From Roseimicrobium sp. ORNL1 (GTDB lineage: Bacteria > Verrucomicrobiota > Verrucomicrobiia > Verrucomicrobiales > Verrucomicrobiaceae): DNA of 64,000 bases. The notes under the pieces were generated by a model, which worked only from the letters and a program-made list of their open reading frames with translations, did no database searches and was not told the origin of the DNA. The stretch is from positions 1,302,001 to 1,366,000 of the forward strand of contig NZ_CP049143.1 of NCBI RefSeq assembly GCF_011044495.1, in the 5' to 3' direction. Numbering within the stretch: the first letter of the stretch is position 1; each line of letters starts with the position of its first letter. Below, one piece after another: positions 36,096 through 46,296 of the stretch. The position numbers and the translations under genes are program-made.

Positions 36096-36932
36096 ATGAA
36101 AAATTTTGCCCGCACCCTCGCATTGCTCCTCCTTGCCTGCGGCCTCAAGACCTTTGCTCACGAACCGAGCGTGGCTCAAGCTGCCGTCCCCGGCAAGGGG
36201 CTCCGGGTGCTGGTGTATTCCAACACCGCTTTCTACCGGCATCCGGACATTCCGGGCATCAATCGCTGGCTCGTCCTGCTCGGACATGAGAACGGCTTTG
36301 AGGTGGATGTGACGGAGCACTTCAAGGACATGACACCTCCGGTGCTGGCGAAGTACGATGTGCTCCTGCTGAACAACGCCAACGAACTCGACAAGGTCCT
36401 GCCAGAGGAGCAGCGCAAGGCCGTGGAAGATTGGTTCACCAAAGGCAAGAAAGGCATCGTGGGCCTGCACGCTGCACTGGTGCACCAGACGAACTGGCCG
36501 TGGCTGAACCAACTCGGCGGTTGTGACTTCAACAGCGACTCAGACTTCATGAAGGCGAAGGTCACCATCGATCCCGCGGCAAAAGATTTTCCCGGACTGA
36601 AAGGCGAGCCGTCTGAATTCACGATCGAGGCAGACTGGACGAACCACGACCGCAGCGTCACCGGCCTTCCCGGCTTCAAGGTCCTGATGCGTGTGGACGA
36701 ATCCACCTACACGCCCGTGCGCGAGTATTTCAAGACCCGCAATGGCAAGCCCATGGGCGCAGATCACCCCATCGCTTGGACTCATGAACCCGCCACTGGT
36801 GGTCGTTTCTTCTACACCGAGTTCGGCCACGATCTGCGCTCCCTGAGCACACCTTTCGTGAGGAAGTTCATCCTCGAAGGCATCAAGTGGTCAGGGGAAT
36901 CGGCGATGGTGGCGAAGGAGAAGAAGCAGTAG
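36096..36932 (+). CDS. Secreted ThuA-like protein
   Basis: 278 residues. Signal peptide (about 1-21), then a ThuA/glutamine-amidotransferase-like fold: VLVYSNTAFYRHPDIPGIN, LLLNNANELDKVLPEEQRKA, GIVGLHAALVHQTNWPWLNQLGG, ending with GGRFFYTEFGHD. ThuA-like proteins are linked to trehalose and other keto-sugar metabolism. The 231 bp upstream, shared with the divergent DUF1552 gene, show no clear promoter. Confidence 0.87.
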   Translation: MKNFARTLALLLLACGLKTFAHEPSVAQAAVPGKGLRVLVYSNTAFYRHPDIPGINRWLVLLGHENGFEVDVTEHFKDMTPPVLAKYDVLLLNNANELDKVLPEEQRKAVEDWFTKGKKGIVGLHAALVHQTNWPWLNQLGGCDFNSDSDFMKAKVTIDPAAKDFPGLKGEPSEFTIEADWTNHDRSVTGLPGFKVLMRVDESTYTPVREYFKTRNGKPMGADHPIAWTHEPATGGRFFYTEFGHDLRSLSTPFVRKFILEGIKWSGESAMVAKEKKQ

Positions 36933-36956
36933 TGAATGGAGGGGGATGAACGTCGG

Positions 36957-37367
36957 CTAGAGCTTCGGCGCCACCAAGAGCCCTACGCCGAGTGAAGTGA
37001 TCAGGGCGAGGATGGCAAGGGCGATCCTCCACGTGATCACCATCACCTTGTCGCGATAGGCCTTGAATTCCTTCAAAGCCTCAAGACATGCCCTGGATTT
37101 CTCCTGGCCTTCGCCCGCGCGGGAGATGACCTCCTCCCAGCGAGCCCGGGCTTCCTCGAATCGGCCCTGCTGGACATGAATGCGTGCCAGAAGATCCAGC
37201 TCCGCGACACTCGCGCGGCTGATACCTCCATGGCAAAGCACCTTCTCTGCTTCTTCCAGCAGATTGAATGAAGCCAGTTCAGCGGCACGCGCCATGCGCA
37301 GCCGCATATTCAGGTCCCGGCACATGAGGTCCATCTCCGGGACTTCTTCCTTCGATGAGGGAGGCAT
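36957..37367 (-). CDS. Small helical protein with C-terminal membrane anchor
   Basis: 136 residues from ATG 37367, 12 bp after the Hsp70-like stop. A TPR-like helical stretch (ELDLLARIHVQQGRFEEARARWEEVISRAGEG) is followed by one C-terminal membrane helix (about 112-132). This is a tail-anchored layout. Last gene of the chaperone-kinase operon. Confidence 0.65.
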   Translation of the reverse strand: MPPSSKEEVPEMDLMCRDLNMRLRMARAAELASFNLLEEAEKVLCHGGISRASVAELDLLARIHVQQGRFEEARARWEEVISRAGEGQEKSRACLEALKEFKAYRDKVMVITWRIALAILALITSLGVGLLVAPKL

Positions 37368-37378
37368 AACAAGCGGTG

Positions 37379-39868
37379 TTACAGAATGGTCGCTCCAATG
37401 CCTCTCTGGGCCTTTTGCGCCTCGTCTGGTGGCAACAGGTTCCACAACTTGCGTACCACATCCTGAAGCCCGTCGATGTTGTTTTGTTGCAGGTAGTTCC
37501 GCCCGCGTTCGAGCAGTCGCTCGGCCGCGTTCACGTCTTGAAACTTGCTGCGATCGCGTTCAAGCCGCCGGAACTGGTCCACCCAGAATCCTGGAAGTGA
37601 GAAAAGGATCTGCGCATACAGAGAGTTGCCCTCCCTGATACGTGTTGCCAGGCGATCGGTCTGTTTTTTGGTAATGATCGAATCCACAAGTTCGGACCAG
37701 TCTTCCACCTTGTCGCGCTGGGCACCTGTACCGTGTTCACTTGCAAGCTTCTTGAGATCCTCCTGCAATTCCCGGGCCTCTGAGACGAGGGTCGGCCACT
37801 TGAGTTTCTCTTCGACGGAATCCAGCTTGAGCTGAAACTCCAGGAGTCTCGCCTGCGCTTTTTCAGCGGCCGCGGGATCCCCTTTGGCGGCACGCACGAC
37901 GTCATCGCGCTCTTGATCGGCTTCGAGTTTGTCCAGTTCCCCAGTAACATCACTTTCCTCGGCTTCTGCTGCCTTCCCTTTCAAGGTGTCCAATCGTACT
38001 TTCTCGGCCTTCAGTGTTTGAACAAGCACTGTCGGATCAGCACTGGCTTTTTCTACCTCCAATTGTTTGGTGAACTCTTCGTCCAACAGAGGGAAATACG
38101 TCTCGAGGATCAAGGTACGGGATTCGCTGACTCTCAAGGTGAGTTCCATGTCAGCCCCCATCGGCAGGTCCCGTTTGATCATGGAAGAATCAATAATGAG
38201 CCTGCCAATCTCCCGGTTGCGGTCGGCGTGTTCATTCTCGCCCTCGATGATGGGAATCTGGATGGAGTCACCAGGCTGGCCGGCTTTCAGCGTCACGGTG
38301 GTCTTGTAGGCCGTGGGCCAGCGCTTCTTCTGTGGCAATCCCGATCCACTCTTGAAGAACACGTCCACGGTATTGTCGGCTTTGGCGAGTCCGATGGATT
38401 TCACCAGAGGTTGCTCTTCAATGACCGCGCCGATGGTGTACACCACGTGGTCGGGTACAGGCTTTTGATGGGTTCCCTGCGGATCCACGATTTCGATGTG
38501 GAAGGTGTTTCGAAACCCTTTTTCGGCCAGCAGATTGGCCATGAAAGCGCCTTCGTTGTTGAGCGGAACCTGGCCGCTTCTCCACTTGGTATCGCGGTTC
38601 ACGAATTCAATGGTGAATCCGGATGTGGAAGTTCCAGATGGGCTGGTCACTTTCCCGGCAATGAGCGGATCGTTGTCGTGCCCCACCGTCTTGTATTTGT
38701 CCGAGATATTCACCTGGAACTCGCCCACCGTTGCCTTCCTCTGTAGCTTGGCGTCGATCTTCTGCGTCCCTGAAAACACCGCCGCACCACGCGCCACCAC
38801 CGTCAGAGGATCCTGGCTGAAATCAATCGGGATGCCCAGACCAGAAGCAAGCATTTCGCGGAAGTAGGGAGCCTTGGTCGGCCCTCCTACAACGATGACT
38901 TTCTGCACTGCGTGGCTTCCGAGATTTTTTTCCTGGAGCACTTTGCGGCAGATATCGACTGACCGGATGATGATGGGTTCGGCAATGCGAATCAGATCAT
39001 CACGGGTCACAATCAACTCATCACATTCAATGGTATCGCCTGACGCGTCTTCAAACGTGACGCCTCCGCTGAGAGTGGTCTTGTGTTTGGTGGAAAGCTC
39101 GATTTTGGCATTCTCCACGGCGTGCTTGATGCGCATCAGCACCAGTTTCCAGCGATCGGATCCGCGATTGAAGTCAGGGAGATCGTAGTTCCTGATCAAT
39201 TGAGGAGCGATCAACTTTTCGACGATTGCCCAATCGATATCCGAACCACCCAGGAAGTTGTCGCCGCCGTGATGCACAACGTTAATCATGCCCTCCTCTG
39301 CTCGGATCAGAGCTGCATCGAAAGTGCCGCCGCCGAAGTCATAGACCAGCCAGTAGGCCTTTTCGGAGTCGATCTGGAATCCGTAGGCGAGGGCTGCGGC
39401 CACGGGTTCTTGAAGCAAGGGGCTGGAAACGAGTCCGGCCAGCTCAGCCGCTCGTCGGGTCGCATCGCACTGATGCAGTTCGAAGGCCGCTGGGACCGTG
39501 ATCACCGCGGACTGGATGGCTTCACCAGTGGCGGCTTCCACGGAGCGCCGCAGTTCCTTCAGTACCTCGGAAGACAGGTCTTCCGGCTTGCGCAGCTGGC
39601 CGCTGGAACCAAACCGATACTGATGCGGCGTTCCCATCTGGCGCTTGAACTCGACGTAGGCATCCTCGTAGCTGCGATCACCCACCGTGGCGTTCTTGGC
39701 GCGAGTTCCCACGCGAACCACGCCCTGCTTGTTGATGAACACGGCGGAAGGCGTGACGTCCTGGTCGTCCACATTCTTGATGATCTGTGGCTCCACGCCA
39801 TTCAGTACAGCAATCGCGCTGTTTGTGGTGCCAAGGTCGATCCCAAAATCAATCGTGCTTCTGCTCAT
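37379..39868 (-). CDS. Hsp70-like ATPase with extended coiled-coil C-terminus
   Basis: 829 residues, some 190 longer than DnaK. The actin-like ATPase is intact: GIDLGTTNSAIAV (phosphate 1), YDFGGGTFDAALI (phosphate 2) and VIVVGGPTKAPYFREML (adenosine). The substrate-binding beta domain (about 385-560) diverges: VGEFQVNISDKYKTVG and DHVVYTIGAVIEEQP. The last ~230 residues are charged coiled coil with no EEVD-like end. Sits with a GrpE-like and a J-like gene, 15 bp after the former. Substrate unknown; a dedicated rather than a housekeeping chaperone is likely. Confidence 0.86.
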   Translation of the reverse strand: MSRSTIDFGIDLGTTNSAIAVLNGVEPQIIKNVDDQDVTPSAVFINKQGVVRVGTRAKNATVGDRSYEDAYVEFKRQMGTPHQYRFGSSGQLRKPEDLSSEVLKELRRSVEAATGEAIQSAVITVPAAFELHQCDATRRAAELAGLVSSPLLQEPVAAALAYGFQIDSEKAYWLVYDFGGGTFDAALIRAEEGMINVVHHGGDNFLGGSDIDWAIVEKLIAPQLIRNYDLPDFNRGSDRWKLVLMRIKHAVENAKIELSTKHKTTLSGGVTFEDASGDTIECDELIVTRDDLIRIAEPIIIRSVDICRKVLQEKNLGSHAVQKVIVVGGPTKAPYFREMLASGLGIPIDFSQDPLTVVARGAAVFSGTQKIDAKLQRKATVGEFQVNISDKYKTVGHDNDPLIAGKVTSPSGTSTSGFTIEFVNRDTKWRSGQVPLNNEGAFMANLLAEKGFRNTFHIEIVDPQGTHQKPVPDHVVYTIGAVIEEQPLVKSIGLAKADNTVDVFFKSGSGLPQKKRWPTAYKTTVTLKAGQPGDSIQIPIIEGENEHADRNREIGRLIIDSSMIKRDLPMGADMELTLRVSESRTLILETYFPLLDEEFTKQLEVEKASADPTVLVQTLKAEKVRLDTLKGKAAEAEESDVTGELDKLEADQERDDVVRAAKGDPAAAEKAQARLLEFQLKLDSVEEKLKWPTLVSEARELQEDLKKLASEHGTGAQRDKVEDWSELVDSIITKKQTDRLATRIREGNSLYAQILFSLPGFWVDQFRRLERDRSKFQDVNAAERLLERGRNYLQQNNIDGLQDVVRKLWNLLPPDEAQKAQRGIGATIL

Positions 39869-39883
39869 GTGCGGTGAAATGGA

Positions 39884-40372
39884 TTACTGTTCTTTCTTGG
39901 AAGCTGGTACGGCAATGTCGATCTCCCCACGTTGCACCATCGTCTGATGCCACATGATCGTGGGTCTGATGGTGCGGATGACCCGCTCTTTGGTGATGCC
40001 TTCCTGCGCCTCTTCGGTCACCACCTGCTCGGGCAGGCCGGCATCAAATTCCTGGTTGCGCCGGTCGATCACCCGAATACCCAGACTTCCAATGGTCTCT
40101 TGTATGGTATGGAGAGAATTCGCGACCTTGCGGATGTCCTGGGATGAAAACTCGGTCTTGGCCTCTCCCGAGTCGGAATCCAGAACCACGGTGCCGAGAC
40201 GCCAGATTTGGTTCGTGATGTGAATCCAGGACTTCATCATTTCTTCCTGGCGCTTGATGAACTCCAGGGAGAATTCCGTCTTGGCAGGTGATGTCTCCTG
40301 GGCATTTCCTGCCATCTGCTCTGCCGTGGGAAACGGCACATGGGGAATCTCAAGAGTCTTGGGTAGTTTCAT
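39884..40372 (-). CDS. GrpE-like protein, presumed nucleotide exchange factor of the operon
   Basis: 162 residues from ATG 40372. A helical N-terminus (FIKRQEEMMKSWIHITNQIWRLG...) leads to a short beta end (RTIRPTIMWHQTMVQRGEIDIAVPAS), where GrpE proteins carry their Hsp70-contacting beta wing. Sequence identity with GrpE is low by eye, so the call rests on architecture and on the Hsp70-like gene 15 bp downstream. Confidence 0.5.
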   Translation of the reverse strand: MKLPKTLEIPHVPFPTAEQMAGNAQETSPAKTEFSLEFIKRQEEMMKSWIHITNQIWRLGTVVLDSDSGEAKTEFSSQDIRKVANSLHTIQETIGSLGIRVIDRRNQEFDAGLPEQVVTEEAQEGITKERVIRTIRPTIMWHQTMVQRGEIDIAVPASKKEQ

Positions 40373-40422
40373 GATGTGGCGATGATGCAAGTTGAGTGGG
40401 TGAGAGAGGAGGGGGCGAAGCA

Positions 40423-42318
40423 TCAACCGTAGCGCCCGGGTCCGTCTCCCACGGACCATCCCTTGCGCACCATCTCTTCAACGCCGGGGAAAGTATCAGG
40501 GGACTTCATGCCATTGAAGTTTTTCAGGATGAATCTGGCTAGCCACCACACGACGCAGCCCGCGAGAGTTCCGATAATCGCGCCGGCAATCCAGTCATCC
40601 GTGGTGGGCCTGCTAATCTTGAAAGCCATGGCTCCGACGATCGCACAAGCGAGCCACAGCAGGCAGCCGGCCGTGTCGGCATTGCCGTATTTCCCCTTGC
40701 AGGTATGGCAGCGGGGGATTGGCACGGATCCCTTGCGATATTGCACCCCTCCATACGAGCGAACCACATCGCCATACAGGGCGAGTTGAAAGGTGGCATC
40801 CTTCGAGGCCGGTTCACGCCCACAGAAGTGGCAGGTGGCGTCCTTCTTGCTTTCCGCAAGGGCCTTGGCGTCTCCCTGAAGGCGTGTTCTGAGGTCGGAA
40901 TCAATGGCCAGCTTCAAGGCCAGCTGGATGGCTTCCTCGGCAGCGGTGTGATTTTGATGTTTGTTGTGCGCCTCAATGCTGATGCTGCGAATCGCCATGG
41001 CAGCTGAGTCCATCATCTGCTGGTACGCCTCGCTCTTTCCACCGATTTGGGCAACGAGAGCGGGAAATTGTGGCAGGATCCTGGCGCGCACCTGCTCAAG
41101 CTTTTGCGCGGACGAGGCTGAGCTGCCCGTCATTTCCTCCAGAGTCTTGAAAAGAGGGGCCAGATGTTTCCAGGCCAGATTGTTCTTCCCAATGGAGATG
41201 TTCTTGATGAGACGCTCGCGAACCTGGGTGCCTGTCGCAAAGGCAAGGGCCTTTTCGAGAAGCTCGACAAACGTATGATTGTCACCCGTCTCTGTCTGAT
41301 AGGAGATCACCACTGTGGCGACGGTTCCGGCCACTTCGTCAAACAAGTCGGAGCGCTGGTGGCTGTCCACCCCGTGAAACAGGTCAAAGAGAGCCATCAG
41401 CGGCTTGCAGTGTTCCATCAGTTCCACCACCGCTTGCGTGCCTTTCTTCGGATCCTTGCTGGCCTTCTCCCGAGTGGATTGCACGAGCTGTTCCACTCGC
41501 TTTCGGGTGGGCGTGAGCACCAGCTCCGCAGTACTGTCTACGTCATCCTGGCCTTGATGCGTCTCGCGCATGAAGTCGACGTGGTACTGCGCCCAATCCA
41601 TCCGTTCCTTTTCAGCAAATCTCAACGCCGCCTCGGCATTGATCCGGTCGAATGCCTGTGGCAGCACCTGCCGCATCCGGCGTACGAATCCCGTGGTCAG
41701 TGCCTCATCCGCCAGGGACCGCACACGCTCCTTCATCACCTCCCACAGTTCATCCGTGCCGGCTAGGTCCTCCCAGCGCTGGAATGCCTCTTTCCAGTGG
41801 CCTTTCACCTTCTCATCACGATCATCCACCTCGTCGGTCGTGATCTGATGGTTCGTCCAGTCCAGGGCGAACATGTGAAACATCACCGCCAGATTGTGGC
41901 GTGCTGTCTGTGAACCCTCGTTCTCCCGATCCACCCAGATGTCGATGGCCTTTTGTCCATCGCCCGCCAGCACCGCTTGAATGGCTGGGTCACTCTTGCT
42001 CTCACCAAACTTTTCTGGCCAATACCAGAAGAACTCATCCACCAGGCGATGTTCTGGCTCCTTCATCCGGGCAAGTGCCGATCGGACCTGTTCCACGGAG
42101 GGCGGCGCCACCGCGGCAAAGGCAGCTTGCGCGATTCCACCCCCACCCATCTCCTCCAGCATTTGCAGTTTCTGCACTTGCCTGGAGACTTCCTTGGGAC
42201 TGGCATCGACTGGCAGTCCGGTGATGCGGAAAATATTCTTTTGATAGAGCTCAAGGGTGGCCGCTTCCATAAGCGACTCGCAGTCGATAGGCTCTATTTT
42301 TGGTCTGGCGGTTTCCAC
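40423..42318 (-). CDS. J-like membrane protein with zinc-ribbon, HPD motif missing
   Basis: 631 residues. Near residues 20-60, YQKNIFRITGLPVDASPKEVSRQV has the shape of a J-domain opening, but no HPD follows. A long helical region (60-480) contains no repeats I can name. Cys pairs CHFC and CHTC at about 495-550 look like a split zinc ribbon. Two membrane helices (around AGCLLWLACAIVGAMAF and WIAGAIIGTLAGCVVWWLARF) end in a short cytoplasmic tail. In the operon it sits where a DnaJ co-chaperone would be expected. An Hsp70-recruiting role without HPD would be atypical. Confidence 0.6.
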   Translation of the reverse strand: METARPKIEPIDCESLMEAATLELYQKNIFRITGLPVDASPKEVSRQVQKLQMLEEMGGGGIAQAAFAAVAPPSVEQVRSALARMKEPEHRLVDEFFWYWPEKFGESKSDPAIQAVLAGDGQKAIDIWVDRENEGSQTARHNLAVMFHMFALDWTNHQITTDEVDDRDEKVKGHWKEAFQRWEDLAGTDELWEVMKERVRSLADEALTTGFVRRMRQVLPQAFDRINAEAALRFAEKERMDWAQYHVDFMRETHQGQDDVDSTAELVLTPTRKRVEQLVQSTREKASKDPKKGTQAVVELMEHCKPLMALFDLFHGVDSHQRSDLFDEVAGTVATVVISYQTETGDNHTFVELLEKALAFATGTQVRERLIKNISIGKNNLAWKHLAPLFKTLEEMTGSSASSAQKLEQVRARILPQFPALVAQIGGKSEAYQQMMDSAAMAIRSISIEAHNKHQNHTAAEEAIQLALKLAIDSDLRTRLQGDAKALAESKKDATCHFCGREPASKDATFQLALYGDVVRSYGGVQYRKGSVPIPRCHTCKGKYGNADTAGCLLWLACAIVGAMAFKISRPTTDDWIAGAIIGTLAGCVVWWLARFILKNFNGMKSPDTFPGVEEMVRKGWSVGDGPGRYG

Positions 42319-42416
42319 AGGGATGGCTGTTGGAGTTTCTTGCTACTTACTGCGTGGGAATCATTCGAGTGCAGCGGGATTGGGAGTCCCTTTGCATGGT
42401 GGTTCGACAGGAGGCG

Positions 42417-43514
42417 CTACATGGAGATGCCACACCGCCAGAGGCGGACCTGGCGATCGTATTTCCTCCTCAGTTCAGGCCATTTGTTGAAGGCCTCTTC
42501 CATGAGGTCGGCTGCCTCAGGAAGCCGGCCTTGCTTTTTCAGTTCGAGGGCCTGTCCCGCCATGGTCTGGGCGAGCTGTTCATTGGGTGAAGCATGACCT
42601 GTACCCAACGCGGCCTTTGAGCCCTCCGATGTCGTGGAGGGTGCAGGAGCATGCTCCGTTCCGGGACGCCACTGTTCCAGAGCGTCCAGCATCTCCATGG
42701 CGTTCGCATAGCGGTCTCCCGGCTGGATGCTCAAGGAGCGCGCGATCACGATATCCAGTGTGCCGTTCACATCGGCATTGAAATCAGAGGCCGGGCGCAC
42801 AACCTCATTGAACAGATCACGGCTTCCCCAGCCAAAGTTGCTTGGGAATTTGTAGGGGAGATGATCCGTCAGTAGCAGGTAGAGGGTGGTGCCAATGGCC
42901 CACACATCCGCGGAGCAGGAATCCCCCTTGCTTTCGCTGAAGGCCTCCGGTGGCTTGAAACTGATGGTGCCGGCGGCAGTGGCGAGAAGCGTGAGCGGAT
43001 TGACCCGCTTCGCCAGGCCGAAGTCGCTGATGCGTGCTCTTAGTCCATCGGCCTCGTAGCCCACGAGAATGTTCTGGGGTTTGATGTCGCGATGGACAAT
43101 CGGCGGCTGCTCCCTGTGGGCTACCGTGAGGCCGCGACAGACCTGTTTGATCAGATTCACCGTCGTTTCGACGGGGACAAAATCGCCGCCATAGGAGTGC
43201 CAGAAATTTTCCAGACTGCCGCCCGGCACATTCTCCATCGTAAAATAACCGAAGAGTCCCTTCCTGGCTTGTACCGTGTTGGCATCAAAGACGCGGACGA
43301 TATTCGGATGGCCAATTCGGGAGAGCATGATGGCCTCGCCAAGCATGACTTCGATATCCGGCAAGGTCATGCCGGGCGACTTGAAGACTTTCATGGCCTG
43401 TCGTCCCAAGAAGCGGTGCTTGACGCGGTACACCTCGGCGAACGCACCCTCGCCCAAAAAGCGTTCCACTTCGTAGGTGTCGCGGATGTTCTGACCTTCT
43501 TCGAGGATTGCCAT
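42417..43514 (-). CDS. Ser/Thr protein kinase
   Basis: 365 residues from ATG 43514. Intact kinase domain (about 15-275): GEGAFAEVYRV P-loop, AMKVF lysine, HRDIKPQNIL catalytic loop and ISDFGLAKR metal motif, APE region as PPEAFS. The C-terminal ~80 residues are a TPR-like helix pair (LKKQGRLPEAADLMEEAFNKWPELRRKY). No membrane helix. It lies 13 bp after the GYF-like gene and 98 bp ahead of the J-like gene in one operon. Confidence 0.92.
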   Translation of the reverse strand: MAILEEGQNIRDTYEVERFLGEGAFAEVYRVKHRFLGRQAMKVFKSPGMTLPDIEVMLGEAIMLSRIGHPNIVRVFDANTVQARKGLFGYFTMENVPGGSLENFWHSYGGDFVPVETTVNLIKQVCRGLTVAHREQPPIVHRDIKPQNILVGYEADGLRARISDFGLAKRVNPLTLLATAAGTISFKPPEAFSESKGDSCSADVWAIGTTLYLLLTDHLPYKFPSNFGWGSRDLFNEVVRPASDFNADVNGTLDIVIARSLSIQPGDRYANAMEMLDALEQWRPGTEHAPAPSTTSEGSKAALGTGHASPNEQLAQTMAGQALELKKQGRLPEAADLMEEAFNKWPELRRKYDRQVRLWRCGISM

Positions 43515-43527
43515 GCCCTTTATCCCT

Positions 43528-44466
43528 CTATCGAATGGGGGTGCCAACCCTGTTCAGTTCCGCATTGAACGCGTCCACATCCTTGTTGTACTGGTCCGAG
43601 AGCGCTTGCACGTTTCCGTTGGTGGCATTGAGACGGCTCACTTTCTGATTGTACGCATTCACTGCGCGCTTGCTGGTGCGGTCGAGGAGACGTCGATCAC
43701 GATCCAGTTCGTTGGATAGGGTTCGGTAGTTGGCTTCCGCCGTCTCCAGGTCCTGCCTTTTTGTTTCCAGGGCGGTCTTCATCACCCGGAGGCGGTAGTA
43801 ATCGGAGTTGGGCACCCTGTAGGTCTGGCCCGAGGCATCGCGGTAGTACTGGACGTCCAGTGCGGGCGATGAGGACGTGCTGGACGTGTTGCGTCCCGAC
43901 GAAGTACCCGAATTTGAGGTCGACGGCAGGCGCCTTGATTCGGAGGGCGGATAGGTGGCAGGCCGTGAATCACGAGAAGTGTCCTGATACTTGCTGGCGA
44001 TGGAATGAGAGCCAGTAGAGGAGTCACCAATCGACCTATCTCTCTCGTTATATGATGTTGATGTCCGGGTCTGTGAGGCTGGCTTGGATGAGGTAGATGA
44101 AGACGAGCGTGACGAGGTGGAGTTTGAGGCGCTCGCGGGCTTGCTAAAGTAGGTCGGAAGATAGCCGAGAATTCCCAGAGACGTAATCCCCAGGAGCGCC
44201 ACGGCCACAATGCCCGGGAGACCGGAAGGGTTTGGTGACCGGGTTTCCGGTTGGGCCGGAGTTTGTGGGACCGACGGTGGCTTTAGGGATTGTTGCTCGT
44301 TGAGAGGGCGCGCGTGTGCCTGGCCGGTCGCTTGGACGGGCACATTCACCGGATACACGCCACCGGCGACCATGGCTTCGATGAAATGCAGATCAAACGG
44401 CCCCAGAACCTTGCCGCCGTGATGCACCAGGTATTCCGTAGGATCTGCGAGAGACGAAAGATTCAC
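43528..44466 (-). CDS. GYF-like membrane protein with Ser-rich linker and coiled coil
   Basis: 312 residues. Residues 11-40 (YLVHHGGKVLGPFDLHFIEAM) look like a GYF_2/DUF4339-type module, which in other proteins binds proline-rich partners. A membrane helix (about 85-105), a very Ser/Thr-rich stretch (110-205) and a C-terminal coiled coil follow. First gene of the operon. Possible membrane docking point for the kinase or chaperone; no direct evidence. Confidence 0.68.
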   Translation of the reverse strand: MNLSSLADPTEYLVHHGGKVLGPFDLHFIEAMVAGGVYPVNVPVQATGQAHARPLNEQQSLKPPSVPQTPAQPETRSPNPSGLPGIVAVALLGITSLGILGYLPTYFSKPASASNSTSSRSSSSTSSKPASQTRTSTSYNERDRSIGDSSTGSHSIASKYQDTSRDSRPATYPPSESRRLPSTSNSGTSSGRNTSSTSSSPALDVQYYRDASGQTYRVPNSDYYRLRVMKTALETKRQDLETAEANYRTLSNELDRDRRLLDRTSKRAVNAYNQKVSRLNATNGNVQALSDQYNKDVDAFNAELNRVGTPIR

Positions 44467-44476
44467 ACAGGGAAAA

Positions 44477-44492
44477 CGCTGAGTTCTCAGCG
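44477..44492. promoter_or_regulatory. Palindrome at the predicted start site of the chaperone-kinase operon
   Basis: CGCTGAGTTCTCAGCG: 7-bp perfect arms around 2 bases. It begins 7 bp downstream of the -10 element, covering the transcription start region. As RNA it would also form a 7-bp hairpin at the 5' end. Fits a repressor operator or a regulatory hairpin. Confidence 0.6.
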
Positions 44493-44498
44493 CTGAAT

Positions 44499-44527
44499 CC
44501 TATACTAATCCTCCGAAAAAACGTCAA
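44499..44527 (-). promoter_or_regulatory. Sigma70-type promoter of the chaperone-kinase operon
   Basis: TTGACG, a 17-base spacer and TATAGG on the minus strand, five and four of six bases to the consensus respectively. It lies 33 bp upstream of the start codon at 44466. Confidence 0.65.
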
Positions 44528-44598
44528 CCCGTGAAGGAGGTTTTTTTAGCGTTCGCAATGGTAACCCGCACTCCACGCGAGGTCGCCGCGTGGCCTTC

Positions 44599-44647
44599 CA
44601 TGCCATCCCTGCACCCAGATCTCTCCGAGGATGCTCTGGATGGCATG
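44599..44647. repeat. Inverted repeat with hairpin potential
   Basis: Arms CATGCCATCC (44599-44608) and GGATGGCATG (44638-44647), perfect 10-bp complement with a 29-base loop, in the 234-bp gap between the esterase fusion and the chaperone operon. Could terminate the esterase transcript, or be one more of the small palindromic repeats found along the window. Confidence 0.45.
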
Positions 44648-44700
44648 TTGCACGATAAACTGAGGGCGACGCCGGCCTGCGTAGCCCAGCGCAGCTCAAA

Positions 44701-46296
44701 TTATTTCGCAACCTTCAGCCTCTCCAGCAGGTACGCCTGCGTCGAGTCATGCTTCGCATCCGTCGCACCGGGGTAGAAAAGTTCACACATCACGCCATTC
44801 GCCTTGCAGTGCTCCTGCAGCTTCACGCCGAAGTTCGAGGTGTGCGTGGGATCCTTCCGGTCCTGCCCCAGCGCGGGCGCTTCCGAGTAGGACATGTAAA
44901 CGGGCGGGTCATCGGAGGTGACCAGCGCGTAGGGCGAGTACTCCGCGATCCATTCCTTGATGCTGTCCCGCTTGGCGAGGAACTCGGCGAAGGAGGAAGT
45001 CTTCTTCGTGGCATCACCCGTGATGCCGAAGGCGTGTGCGCCGTAGGTGCTGTTCGGAGTCCAGTCCTTCATCTGCTGCGGATCCAGCGTGGTCTGCGCG
45101 CCATTGACCGCGGCGCACCAGAGGCGGGTGGATTCGCGTGCGATGGGGTCACTGCTCTTCGGGTCAGCCATGTCGGGGTGGAATGCGAGCCACAGCGACG
45201 TGCAGGCGCCTGCGGAGCCGCCGCTCGCGCCGATGCGTTCCTTGTCGATGTTCCACTCCTTGGCTTTGCTGCGCACCGTCTGCAAGGCGAGCGCTGCATC
45301 ATGCAGCGGCCCCTTCACGGGAGGCACCACACCGTCTTTCGTCGCTTCGGAGATGAAGCGATACTCCACGGACACTACCGAGATGCCGTTCTTCAGCATC
45401 TCAGGCAACATCTTGGTCACTCCACTCAGGCGTCCGCCCTGGGTCCATCCACCGCCATGCACGAAGAAGAGTAGCGGTGTGGGCTTGTCTGACTCCGCCT
45501 TCCAGAAATGCATCACCTGCTTCGGGTGCGGACCATAGGCCACGTCGTATTCCGTCGGATTCGGGATCGGGGGATTTTCCGCGAGGAATTTCTTCGCTTC
45601 GTCCTCCTTGATGTCGCGGATGAAGATGTTCCTCCAGCGAATCTCACCGCCGTGTGTCTGCAGCATGATGGGGCCCTTCGCGGGGAAAGGCTGCGTCTTG
45701 TCCCAGTAGTTCTCCATCGCCGCACCGTCCACCTCCAGGCGCGTGTTGAGCGTCACCCACGTGCGCGCGCCGATTTGTTTGATGCGAAAGGTGTTCCACT
45801 GGCCAAAAGGTTTGTCCGTCAGCGCAATCGGATCGCGGCCGAGCGTCTTCGGCGTGTTGTTGAAAAGACCACCCGAGCCGAGGTGCGGACGGCGATCCGG
45901 CTTCTTGGGATCGAAAACCTGGTTCCAGTCCCAGATCTGCACCTGCGGTACCCCGCGCAGGTAGATGCCGCTGTCCGCGCCGGCCACCGTCTTGTACTCG
46001 ATCAGGAGCTCGAAGTCGCCGAACTCCTCATCCGTGGTGGCGTACGGGCCCGTGCCGCTGTTCACCAGTTCGCCATTCTCCACACGCCAGTGCTGGGGGA
46101 ACTCTTCGCGCATCTTCTTGAGTGCTTCGTCCTTCTTCTCACCCGTGAGCTTCACCACCGAGTGCGGATTCAGCCCATGCCAGCCGGCGAGATCCTGACC
46201 ATTGAACAGCGGACGGAAACCTTTCGGCGGTTCCGGGGGCGCGGCCTGGAGCGCAGTCGCGAGGACGGTGAAGAGGAGGGCAAATCTTATGAGCAT
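44701..46296 (-). CDS. Secreted DUF1080 domain fused to an alpha/beta-hydrolase
   Basis: 531 residues. Signal peptide (about 1-18), DUF1080 lectin-like domain (about 25-225: FRPLFNGQDLAGWHG, GADSGIYLRGVPQVQIWD, IRWRNIFIRDI), then an esterase/lipase-type alpha/beta hydrolase: HGGGW oxyanion motif, nucleophile elbow GASGGSAGA (Ser in GGSAG), and a late His (DAKHDSTQAY). Combined sugar binding and ester cleavage fits polysaccharide deacylation. Possible operator at 46373. Confidence 0.87.
   Translation of the reverse strand: MLIRFALLFTVLATALQAAPPEPPKGFRPLFNGQDLAGWHGLNPHSVVKLTGEKKDEALKKMREEFPQHWRVENGELVNSGTGPYATTDEEFGDFELLIEYKTVAGADSGIYLRGVPQVQIWDWNQVFDPKKPDRRPHLGSGGLFNNTPKTLGRDPIALTDKPFGQWNTFRIKQIGARTWVTLNTRLEVDGAAMENYWDKTQPFPAKGPIMLQTHGGEIRWRNIFIRDIKEDEAKKFLAENPPIPNPTEYDVAYGPHPKQVMHFWKAESDKPTPLLFFVHGGGWTQGGRLSGVTKMLPEMLKNGISVVSVEYRFISEATKDGVVPPVKGPLHDAALALQTVRSKAKEWNIDKERIGASGGSAGACTSLWLAFHPDMADPKSSDPIARESTRLWCAAVNGAQTTLDPQQMKDWTPNSTYGAHAFGITGDATKKTSSFAEFLAKRDSIKEWIAEYSPYALVTSDDPPVYMSYSEAPALGQDRKDPTHTSNFGVKLQEHCKANGVMCELFYPGATDAKHDSTQAYLLERLKVAK

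Follow-up and report, generated by a model that had tools for sequence, protein, structure and literature searches.

A membrane-linked, probably mobile Hsp70 operon in which the HPD trigger appears to be lost on both partners

Within the window analysed here, i.e., the whole 64,000-nucleotide stretch of Roseimicrobium sp. ORNL1 DNA that covers positions 1302001–1366000 of a one-contig genome of 7.96 Mb, a minus-strand operon at 36957–44466 encodes six proteins: a GYF-like membrane protein, a Ser/Thr protein kinase, a J-like adaptor, a GrpE-like protein, an Hsp70 of a separate clade and a TPR-like protein. The strongest result of our analysis is that the ligand and the pocket of the canonical Hsp70 trigger appear to have been lost together, because the loop of the J-like proteins lacks the His-Pro-Asp (HPD) motif and the Hsp70s lack R167, N170, T173 and Q378. 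From the composition, conservation and residues of this family we infer, with a probability of about 0.5, an accessory and probably mobile Hsp70 machine that would be fixed to the inner membrane and run an HPD-independent ATP cycle, probably set by the kinase. Since the same genome also encodes dnaK, other Hsp70s, dnaJ and grpE elsewhere, the six-gene set is additional to the host machinery. An earlier interpretation made from the letters of the DNA (hereafter the sequence-only reading) had already proposed a membrane chaperone machine under kinase control; our analysis adds to it the patchy occurrence of the family, the missing HPD pocket of the Hsp70, the insert in that protein and the Clp-type AAA+ genes.

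Both partners of the canonical trigger are altered

The Hsp70 gene (37379–39868, minus strand; 829 amino acids) was assigned by Pfam, by a tree of the nucleotide-binding domain (NBD) and by residue alignment. That its product is an Hsp70-like ATPase, as first read from the sequence, is borne out by a Pfam HSP70 match (PF00012, E-value 8e-66) confined to residues 8–367 of the window protein and by the catalytic residues, with K70, E171 and T199 kept in 23/23 family Hsp70s and D8 in 22/23 (one X). R167, N170, T173 and Q378 occur in 0/23 of these Hsp70s, one of which is gapped at position 378, and among seven comparators, namely E. coli DnaK, HscA and HscC plus four paralogues of the window genome, R167 and T173 are present in all seven and N170 and Q378 in six each. 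We take N170 and T173 to be further contact sites for the J aspartate in the pocket of DnaK. As described in excerpts of Mayer 2021 (PMC8215388), H33 of the HPD motif binds L391 of the DnaK linker, and D35 binds both R167 and Q378. On the J side, HPD was absent from the loop between helices II and III in 19/19 J-like segments inspected (the pattern used did not match that of L064; L and G numbers denote loci and genomes, respectively), and an HPD or HPE tripeptide was found anywhere in 2/20 J-like proteins, at 652 in L014 and at 24 in L040, both outside the loop.

The family Hsp70s fall outside DnaK, HscA and HscC in an NBD tree of 30 sequences that was midpoint-rooted and had no outgroup, with supports of 0.93 (23 family members) and 1.0 (7 comparators). 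Their architecture comprises the ATPase domain (8–367), an insert of ~110 residues, a part resembling the substrate-binding domain (SBD) and a helical-looking C-terminal part. The insert lies between the ATPase and substrate domains (22 members aligned; L036 ends inside it) and weakly resembles a carboxypeptidase regulatory domain (2/16 members at E 0.1, best 0.029). A standard linker directly joining NBD and SBD was not found in the family Hsp70s; because a linker-like stretch may come after the insert, our claim is that the linker would be displaced rather than absent. The Hsp70s remain alignable across the SBD-like region.

J-domain and GrpE ancestry of the two partners

The J-like adaptor (40423–42318, minus strand; 631 amino acids) was characterised by profile–profile comparison, a structural model and hydropathy. 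A J-like domain (~20–104) is followed by an alpha-solenoid to ~490, a Cys-rich part and two transmembrane (TM) helices predicted by hydropathy (550–568 and 576–594); the proteins of L014–L016 resemble it over no more than its first ~488 residues, and the tails differ between relatives. In the model (mean predicted local distance difference test, pLDDT, 83) the helices at 29–33, 41–56, 75–85 and 88–96 stand in J order, and beyond the J-like domain it shows an alpha-solenoid followed by a beta part and a pair of long helices. The GrpE-like protein (39884–40372, minus strand; 162 amino acids) has a long helix, a second helix and a small beta domain, and a Foldseek search with its AlphaFold2 model (pLDDT 72) returned T. 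thermophilus GrpE as the first match (probability 0.89, E 0.085). In hhalign comparisons with references taken from relatives (12 canonical J domains selected by an HPD filter and 13 GrpE proteins selected by a GrpE-motif filter), for which the GrpE-like rows were trimmed and the settings changed as post hoc choices, with the reversed controls treated identically, the J-like N-terminus aligned to canonical J domains over 59 columns (P 4e-5, probability 70; 0.08 when reversed, 0.14 for the unrelated GrpE profile) and the GrpE-like protein aligned to GrpE over 107 columns (P 1.4e-6, probability 90; 0.37 when reversed, 1.2 for the unrelated J profile).

Single-sequence and profile searches gave weaker matches. 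Pfam returned nothing relevant for the window J-like protein, and for the GrpE-like protein it gave GrpE at E 0.015, under the curated cut-off. The J-like profile run against PDB matched unrelated proteins of helical structure, DnaJ scoring no better than E ~1, and the GrpE-like profile placed GrpE eighth at E 0.29. Taken together, J-domain ancestry of the adaptor and GrpE ancestry of the small protein are supported by the profile comparisons, helix order and Foldseek match, though weakly by each single-sequence or fold search, in agreement with the sequence-only reading, which had named a J-like protein without HPD and a small GrpE-like protein.

The core gene order recurs in 15 loci

The tightly spaced minus-strand arrangement described earlier was recovered with all six genes present, the intergenic gaps from the GYF-like to the TPR-like gene being 13, 98, 50, 15 and 11 bases; a simple scan of 36800–44750 detected no sigma-70-like promoter. 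Conservation of gene order in relatives, which the sequence-only reading had left for checking, was also found: purpose-built hidden Markov models (HMMs) located the order kinase – J-like – GrpE-like – Hsp70 in 15 loci from four phyla (the phylum label of a relative's locus being the taxonomic group searched), i.e., the window, L014 and its near-identical copy L015, L027 (kinase gene truncated by the contig end), L028, L033, L034, L035, L038, L063, L064, L065, L066, L067 and the Chloroflexota locus L068 (kinase gene split). Two J genes each are present in L028 and L034. The order is consistent in L016, L031, L039 and L042, but contig ends cut these loci, and in L036 GrpE precedes J. The kinase, J, GrpE and Hsp70 sets gave correlated pairwise distances in 6/6 comparisons (Mantel r 0.55–0.81, 11–17 loci per comparison, with 0/2000 permutations reaching the observed r in each). 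Since the order recurs in 15 loci and the core distances correlate, the operon is more than a chance association; the correlation fits inheritance as a single unit, and shared species history would add to the signal.

Homologues were found in just 1–4% of genomes across searches, in counts that include the home genome each time and several weak or partial matches. The window J-like protein matched 5/141 genomes of its order, its own included (in one of the five, G049, the match is confined to the C-terminal part), and profile searches matched 7/387 genomes of the phylum, 6/345 for the phylum of the Syntrophaceae locus, 5/297 for the Acidobacteria locus and 4/350 for the Dehalococcoidales locus. 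Two peptide patterns run against GTDB species genomes gave 10 loci, with L029, L030 and L032 on previously found contigs.

Kinase, membrane anchors and further partners

The kinase gene (42417–43514, minus strand; 365 amino acids, ATG start) encodes a complete protein kinase, as had been stated from the sequence: Pfam Pkinase matches at 1e-37, and 15/15 family members keep the catalytic K, E, HRD and DFG. Its activation loop starts with a conserved DFGLAK, and a WRxG motif lies near the C-terminus in 13/15; in the L038 kinase the APE glutamate is missing.

Membrane helices were predicted by hydropathy in three of the six proteins (GYF-like, J-like and TPR-like), the same number and the same proteins as before. 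The GYF-like protein (43528–44466, minus strand; 312 amino acids, GTG start) has an N-terminal GYF-like domain, a TM helix at 85–103, a Ser/Thr-rich linker and a C-terminal part; GYF_2 scores E 0.09, under the cut-off, in the window protein and 1.3e-6, above it, in L031, and we base the family call for the window protein on this relative. In that locus an 807-amino-acid protein (L031 4810–7233), encoded immediately upstream of the genes for the GYF protein and the kinase, combines 15 Sel1 repeats with a GYF-like match that stays below threshold. At L017 (7913–11064, in G049), two Cys-rich, two-TM proteins resembling the J tail stand beside GYF-like proteins, and the 18-kb G049 stretch gave no kinase, GrpE or Hsp70 match; a J-type tail and a GYF protein may thus form a unit of their own.

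The TPR-like protein (36957–37367, minus strand; 136 amino acids, ATG start) matches Pfam TPR at E ~0.001, under the curated cut-off, and carries a C-terminal membrane helix at 115–133, so the description of a tail-anchored TPR-like protein stands. A TM helix is predicted in 11/14 relatives, some of which have a longer protein, and an OmpA domain follows the TPR-TM part above the cut-off in L034, L063, L064 and L067 and below it in L066; none was found at E 0.01 on the TPR proteins of L033, L037, L040 and L041. If the usual topology applies, the TPR part would be cytosolic and the OmpA part outside.

Clp-type AAA+ genes accompany the core at L014, L015, L034, L063, L066 and L067 (Pfam checked for L014). 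IGF, a feature of ClpP-binding Clp proteins, is present in those of L014, L015 and L034, the three in which the segment was found. Small sigma-70-like genes (~205 amino acids) lie upstream of four Verrucomicrobiota loci (L015 5230–5853, called by Pfam; L028 5272–5895, L031 1953–2570 and L033 2–616, called by eye), and none lies directly upstream of the window copy. At L068 (5114–6534), upstream of the kinase, a lone Clp_N protein accompanies a protein that joins an FHA domain to an OmpR-type DNA-binding domain, and it is possible that this FHA protein is a phosphothreonine read-out of the kinase.

The operon lies on an accessory segment

The operon sits on an accessory segment of ~7.8 kb (36936–44701, no strand) that is absent from the equivalent site of the same-genus genome G063, in which the two genes bordering the window copy, ThuA-like and esterase, lie ~60 bases apart with the operon missing between them. 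GC content at third codon positions is 0.66–0.72 in the operon genes and 0.77–0.81 in three neighbouring genes. A tyrosine integrase lies near L015, and an integrase-like gene was noted by eye beside L016; none of the six operon genes encodes an integrase, and an exact-match script found no direct repeats of at least 8 bases between the insert ends of the window copy. Arrival of the operon by insertion is likely in light of these comparisons, and given that end repeats and an integrase are lacking in the operon, loss in the sister species is possible too. It probably moves horizontally between species.

Two plasmids carry related sets. On Haliscomenobacter hydrossis pHALHY02 (L073, 8539–16064), J-like, GrpE-like and Hsp70 genes are followed by a kinase–AAA+ fusion and TerB, and the set has a SIR2/WD40 cluster on one side and BREX genes on the other; the J-like protein is annotated as CFI-box-CTERM, the GrpE-like protein as a septum formation initiator and the fusion as an AAA ATPase only. 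The conjugative plasmid pSDM007 of Pseudomonas hygromyciniae (L164, 11256–16236) holds a three-gene cassette whose first product is a large protein that looks TPR-like by eye and gave no J match, followed by a GrpE-like protein and an Hsp70 belonging to this divergent clade, with insertion sequence elements and toxin–antitoxin genes nearby. At L028 (5951–17902) most genes are split into several frames, reflecting either decay or errors in the assembled sequence, and BREX and Lamassu genes adjoin.

A proposed machine and its alternatives

In the machine that we propose, the J-like adaptor would bind the Hsp70 by a surface distinct from the HPD–R167 contact, and its solenoid and variable tail would deliver clients. 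ATP hydrolysis would respond to a different signal, for which the most likely candidate is that the kinase of the operon phosphorylates J, GrpE or Hsp70, and the GrpE-like protein would reset the machine for another round. Tethering to the envelope would fall to the TPR-TM or TPR-OmpA protein, an AAA+ partner, in loci that have one, would receive the client, and the clients would probably be misfolded or foreign proteins at the membrane in stress or infection. Kinase control and chaperone activity, as well as binding, phosphorylation, localisation, clients and role, are what we infer from the gene set and its residues.

Several observations weigh against this machine. The core stands without an adjacent kinase in L037 (at a contig start), L040 and L041, and without an operon-type kinase in the distant L069, L070 and L072 (J–GrpE–Hsp70 in the latter two) and on the Pseudomonas plasmid; because such relatives exist, the kinase is dispensable for the core, which weakens the step of kinase control. 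J homology is weak, with the J-like proteins reaching at most 7.6 bits against a canonical-J-domain HMM and the whole J-like model retrieving helical repeats, with no J-domain match among the 50 Foldseek rows listed. Some GrpE-like proteins score no higher than reversed decoys with a GrpE HMM, and VIA-align ranks GrpE 31st for the GrpE-like model (Z 5.3), under unrelated helical rows, and does not tell GrpE from common helix pairs. The membrane setting of the sequence-only reading, which the OmpA domains on TPR-TM proteins of five relatives (one below the cut-off) strengthen, is qualified by 5/20 J-like proteins without a predicted membrane helix and 3/14 TPR proteins without a TM helix. Finally, because a designed HPD-less sequence stimulates Hsc70 (PMC13254874, in excerpt), loss of HPD alone leaves J-like stimulation possible.

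The foremost alternative, possible though doubtful in our judgement, is an anti-phage or conflict system in which the Hsp70, J and kinase would detect, at the envelope, phage proteins or the protein damage that goes with infection and would switch at a threshold, as has been suggested for other systems gated by chaperones; a precedent is bNACHT25, whose response to phage depends on host DnaJ–DnaK (PMC12169576, in excerpt). According to PADLOC models, SngA, SngB and SngC (Shango) flank L033, GajA and GajB (Gabija) plus HmaC flank L067, and BrxL, BrxC, PglX and PglZ plus LmuA and LmuB flank L028, so that at least two genes of one named defence system flank 3/18 loci, which is suggestive only; a partial methyltransferase of HmaB/DUF1156 type flanks L064. 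No comparable defence-gene pair was evident among 202 control open reading frames (ORFs) from 20 regions of at most 14 kb in the window genome and relative-carrying genomes (scanned as 120 + 82), and the Haliscomenobacter plasmid copy adjoins brxL, pglZ and a SIR2 gene. The patchy distribution and the integrases already mentioned point the same way. However, the one-sided Fisher test gave p 0.097 (3/18 vs 0/20), or 0.047 when the Haliscomenobacter plasmid was added (4/19), in an uneven comparison in which flank lengths differ, near candidates were hand-picked, some lie beyond the main near-set cut and control matches are untraced to regions. Since the flanks are uneven and the near candidates were chosen by eye, we treat the defence neighbourhood as a lead only.

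The 18 loci of this test exclude L015 (near-identical to L014), L016, L027, L035 and L042, mostly on short contigs, and include L038, which yet has no neighbour ORF. From the near set, 120/135 ORFs were scanned and then ten more proteins (nine of the fifteen remaining and one previously scanned). At E 1e-8, PADLOC family counts were 248 for the near set and 15 + 10 for the control, which are not gene counts because one gene can match dozens of models (two near-set genes are kinases); the control matches include RtcR-like, mad3, mad8 and kinase models. Further points also speak against defence: the ThuA-like and esterase neighbours in the window are not defence genes, many loci lie beside housekeeping genes (by eye), there is no obvious toxic effector, and searches of phage records and viral contigs gave no copy of the operon. 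Within the operon, PADLOC gave kinase models for the kinase only, two other proteins giving rows at E 0.0045 or above. The idea that the operon is a general marker of defence islands was dropped, as many loci have ordinary neighbours.

A bolder version of our own proposal, which we consider rather improbable, would be a fourth kind of bacterial Hsp70 machine, with the J trigger erased on both partners and a dedicated kinase in its place, forming a mobile module, anchored in the envelope, that would unfold proteins at the membrane and in this way protect against infection or acute damage to the envelope.

We regard as unlikely that the operon encodes an envelope kinase signalling scaffold in which the Hsp70 would be an ATP-switched assembly factor and not a chaperone, by analogy with the kinase–FHA–ClpV side of type VI secretion. 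The conserved kinase tail, the OmpA-TPR anchors, the AAA+ partner, the FHA–response-regulator and Clp_N genes beside the Chloroflexota locus and the small sigma-factor-like genes upstream of several copies would suit such a scaffold, but no secretion gene is found among the six proteins and the Hsp70s stay alignable across the SBD-like region. An ordinary extra DnaK–DnaJ–GrpE set that works classically and is odd through sequence drift only, as the same three partners, the intact ATPase residues and the J and GrpE homology might suggest, is very improbable, given that the loss of all four pocket residues in 23/23 Hsp70s together with the loss of HPD is a fixed two-sided change across several phyla, accompanied by an insert in the linker region and a dedicated kinase beside 15 cores.

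Under the HPD-independent machine that we favour, the interest of the family is that a natural Hsp70 clade appears to lack both the receiving pocket and the HPD of its partner, yet keeps the ATPase residues and a GrpE relative. The system makes two things testable, i.e., Hsp70 cycling without the classical trigger and the kinase as a possible replacement for it.

Comparison with known systems

In the open-access literature, with subscription papers and bioRxiv preprints mostly uncovered, no published description of the six-gene set was recognised; the papers below are cited from excerpts of their text. The type VI analogy aside, the transmissible locus of stress tolerance has as its parts a small Hsp, ClpG and FtsH. 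These three are not among the six operon proteins, and the likeness lies in its being a mobile proteostasis island (PMC8407380, PMC8290217). CoCoNuT systems with the Hsp70-like CnuD place Hsp70-like proteins in defence loci, with kinase triads in some; their Hsp70 units are fused to McrB/McrC parts and have degenerate ATPase motifs (PMC11090510), whereas neither a McrB-like GTPase nor a McrC homologue is found among the six operon proteins. Other near literature comprises PilZ–DnaK of Myxococcus and a paper on DnaK duplication. The GAP1-N2 GTPase conflict systems (Kaur et al. 2020, PMC7159879) bring together, near the membrane, Hsp70, GrpE and a protein with a fused DnaJ, with GYF and kinase in other subsets, but centre on GTPases with GAP1 and an FNIII–DnaJ fusion, none of which is among the six operon proteins.

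Closer in mechanism, Pam16 and other pseudo-J proteins share a J fold without a working HPD and a membrane setting (PMC13254874). Pam16 partners a working J protein, whereas the operon has no HPD J protein and the Hsp70 pocket is lost too. HscC of E. coli is another divergent Hsp70, served by J proteins of its own, DjlB and DjlC, in which the motif is altered to HPE (PMC13254874), but it retains R167, N170, T173 and Q378, and, unlike the operon, no GrpE or kinase gene is annotated within a 15-kb stretch around E. coli hscC. With DnaK–DnaJ–GrpE itself (PMC8215388) the operon has in common the Hsp70 ATPase, the J-related adaptor, the GrpE-related factor and, in relatives, an AAA+ partner; it differs in that HPD and its pocket are gone, in the insert of the linker region, in its own kinase and membrane anchors, and in an Hsp70 that forms a separate clade.

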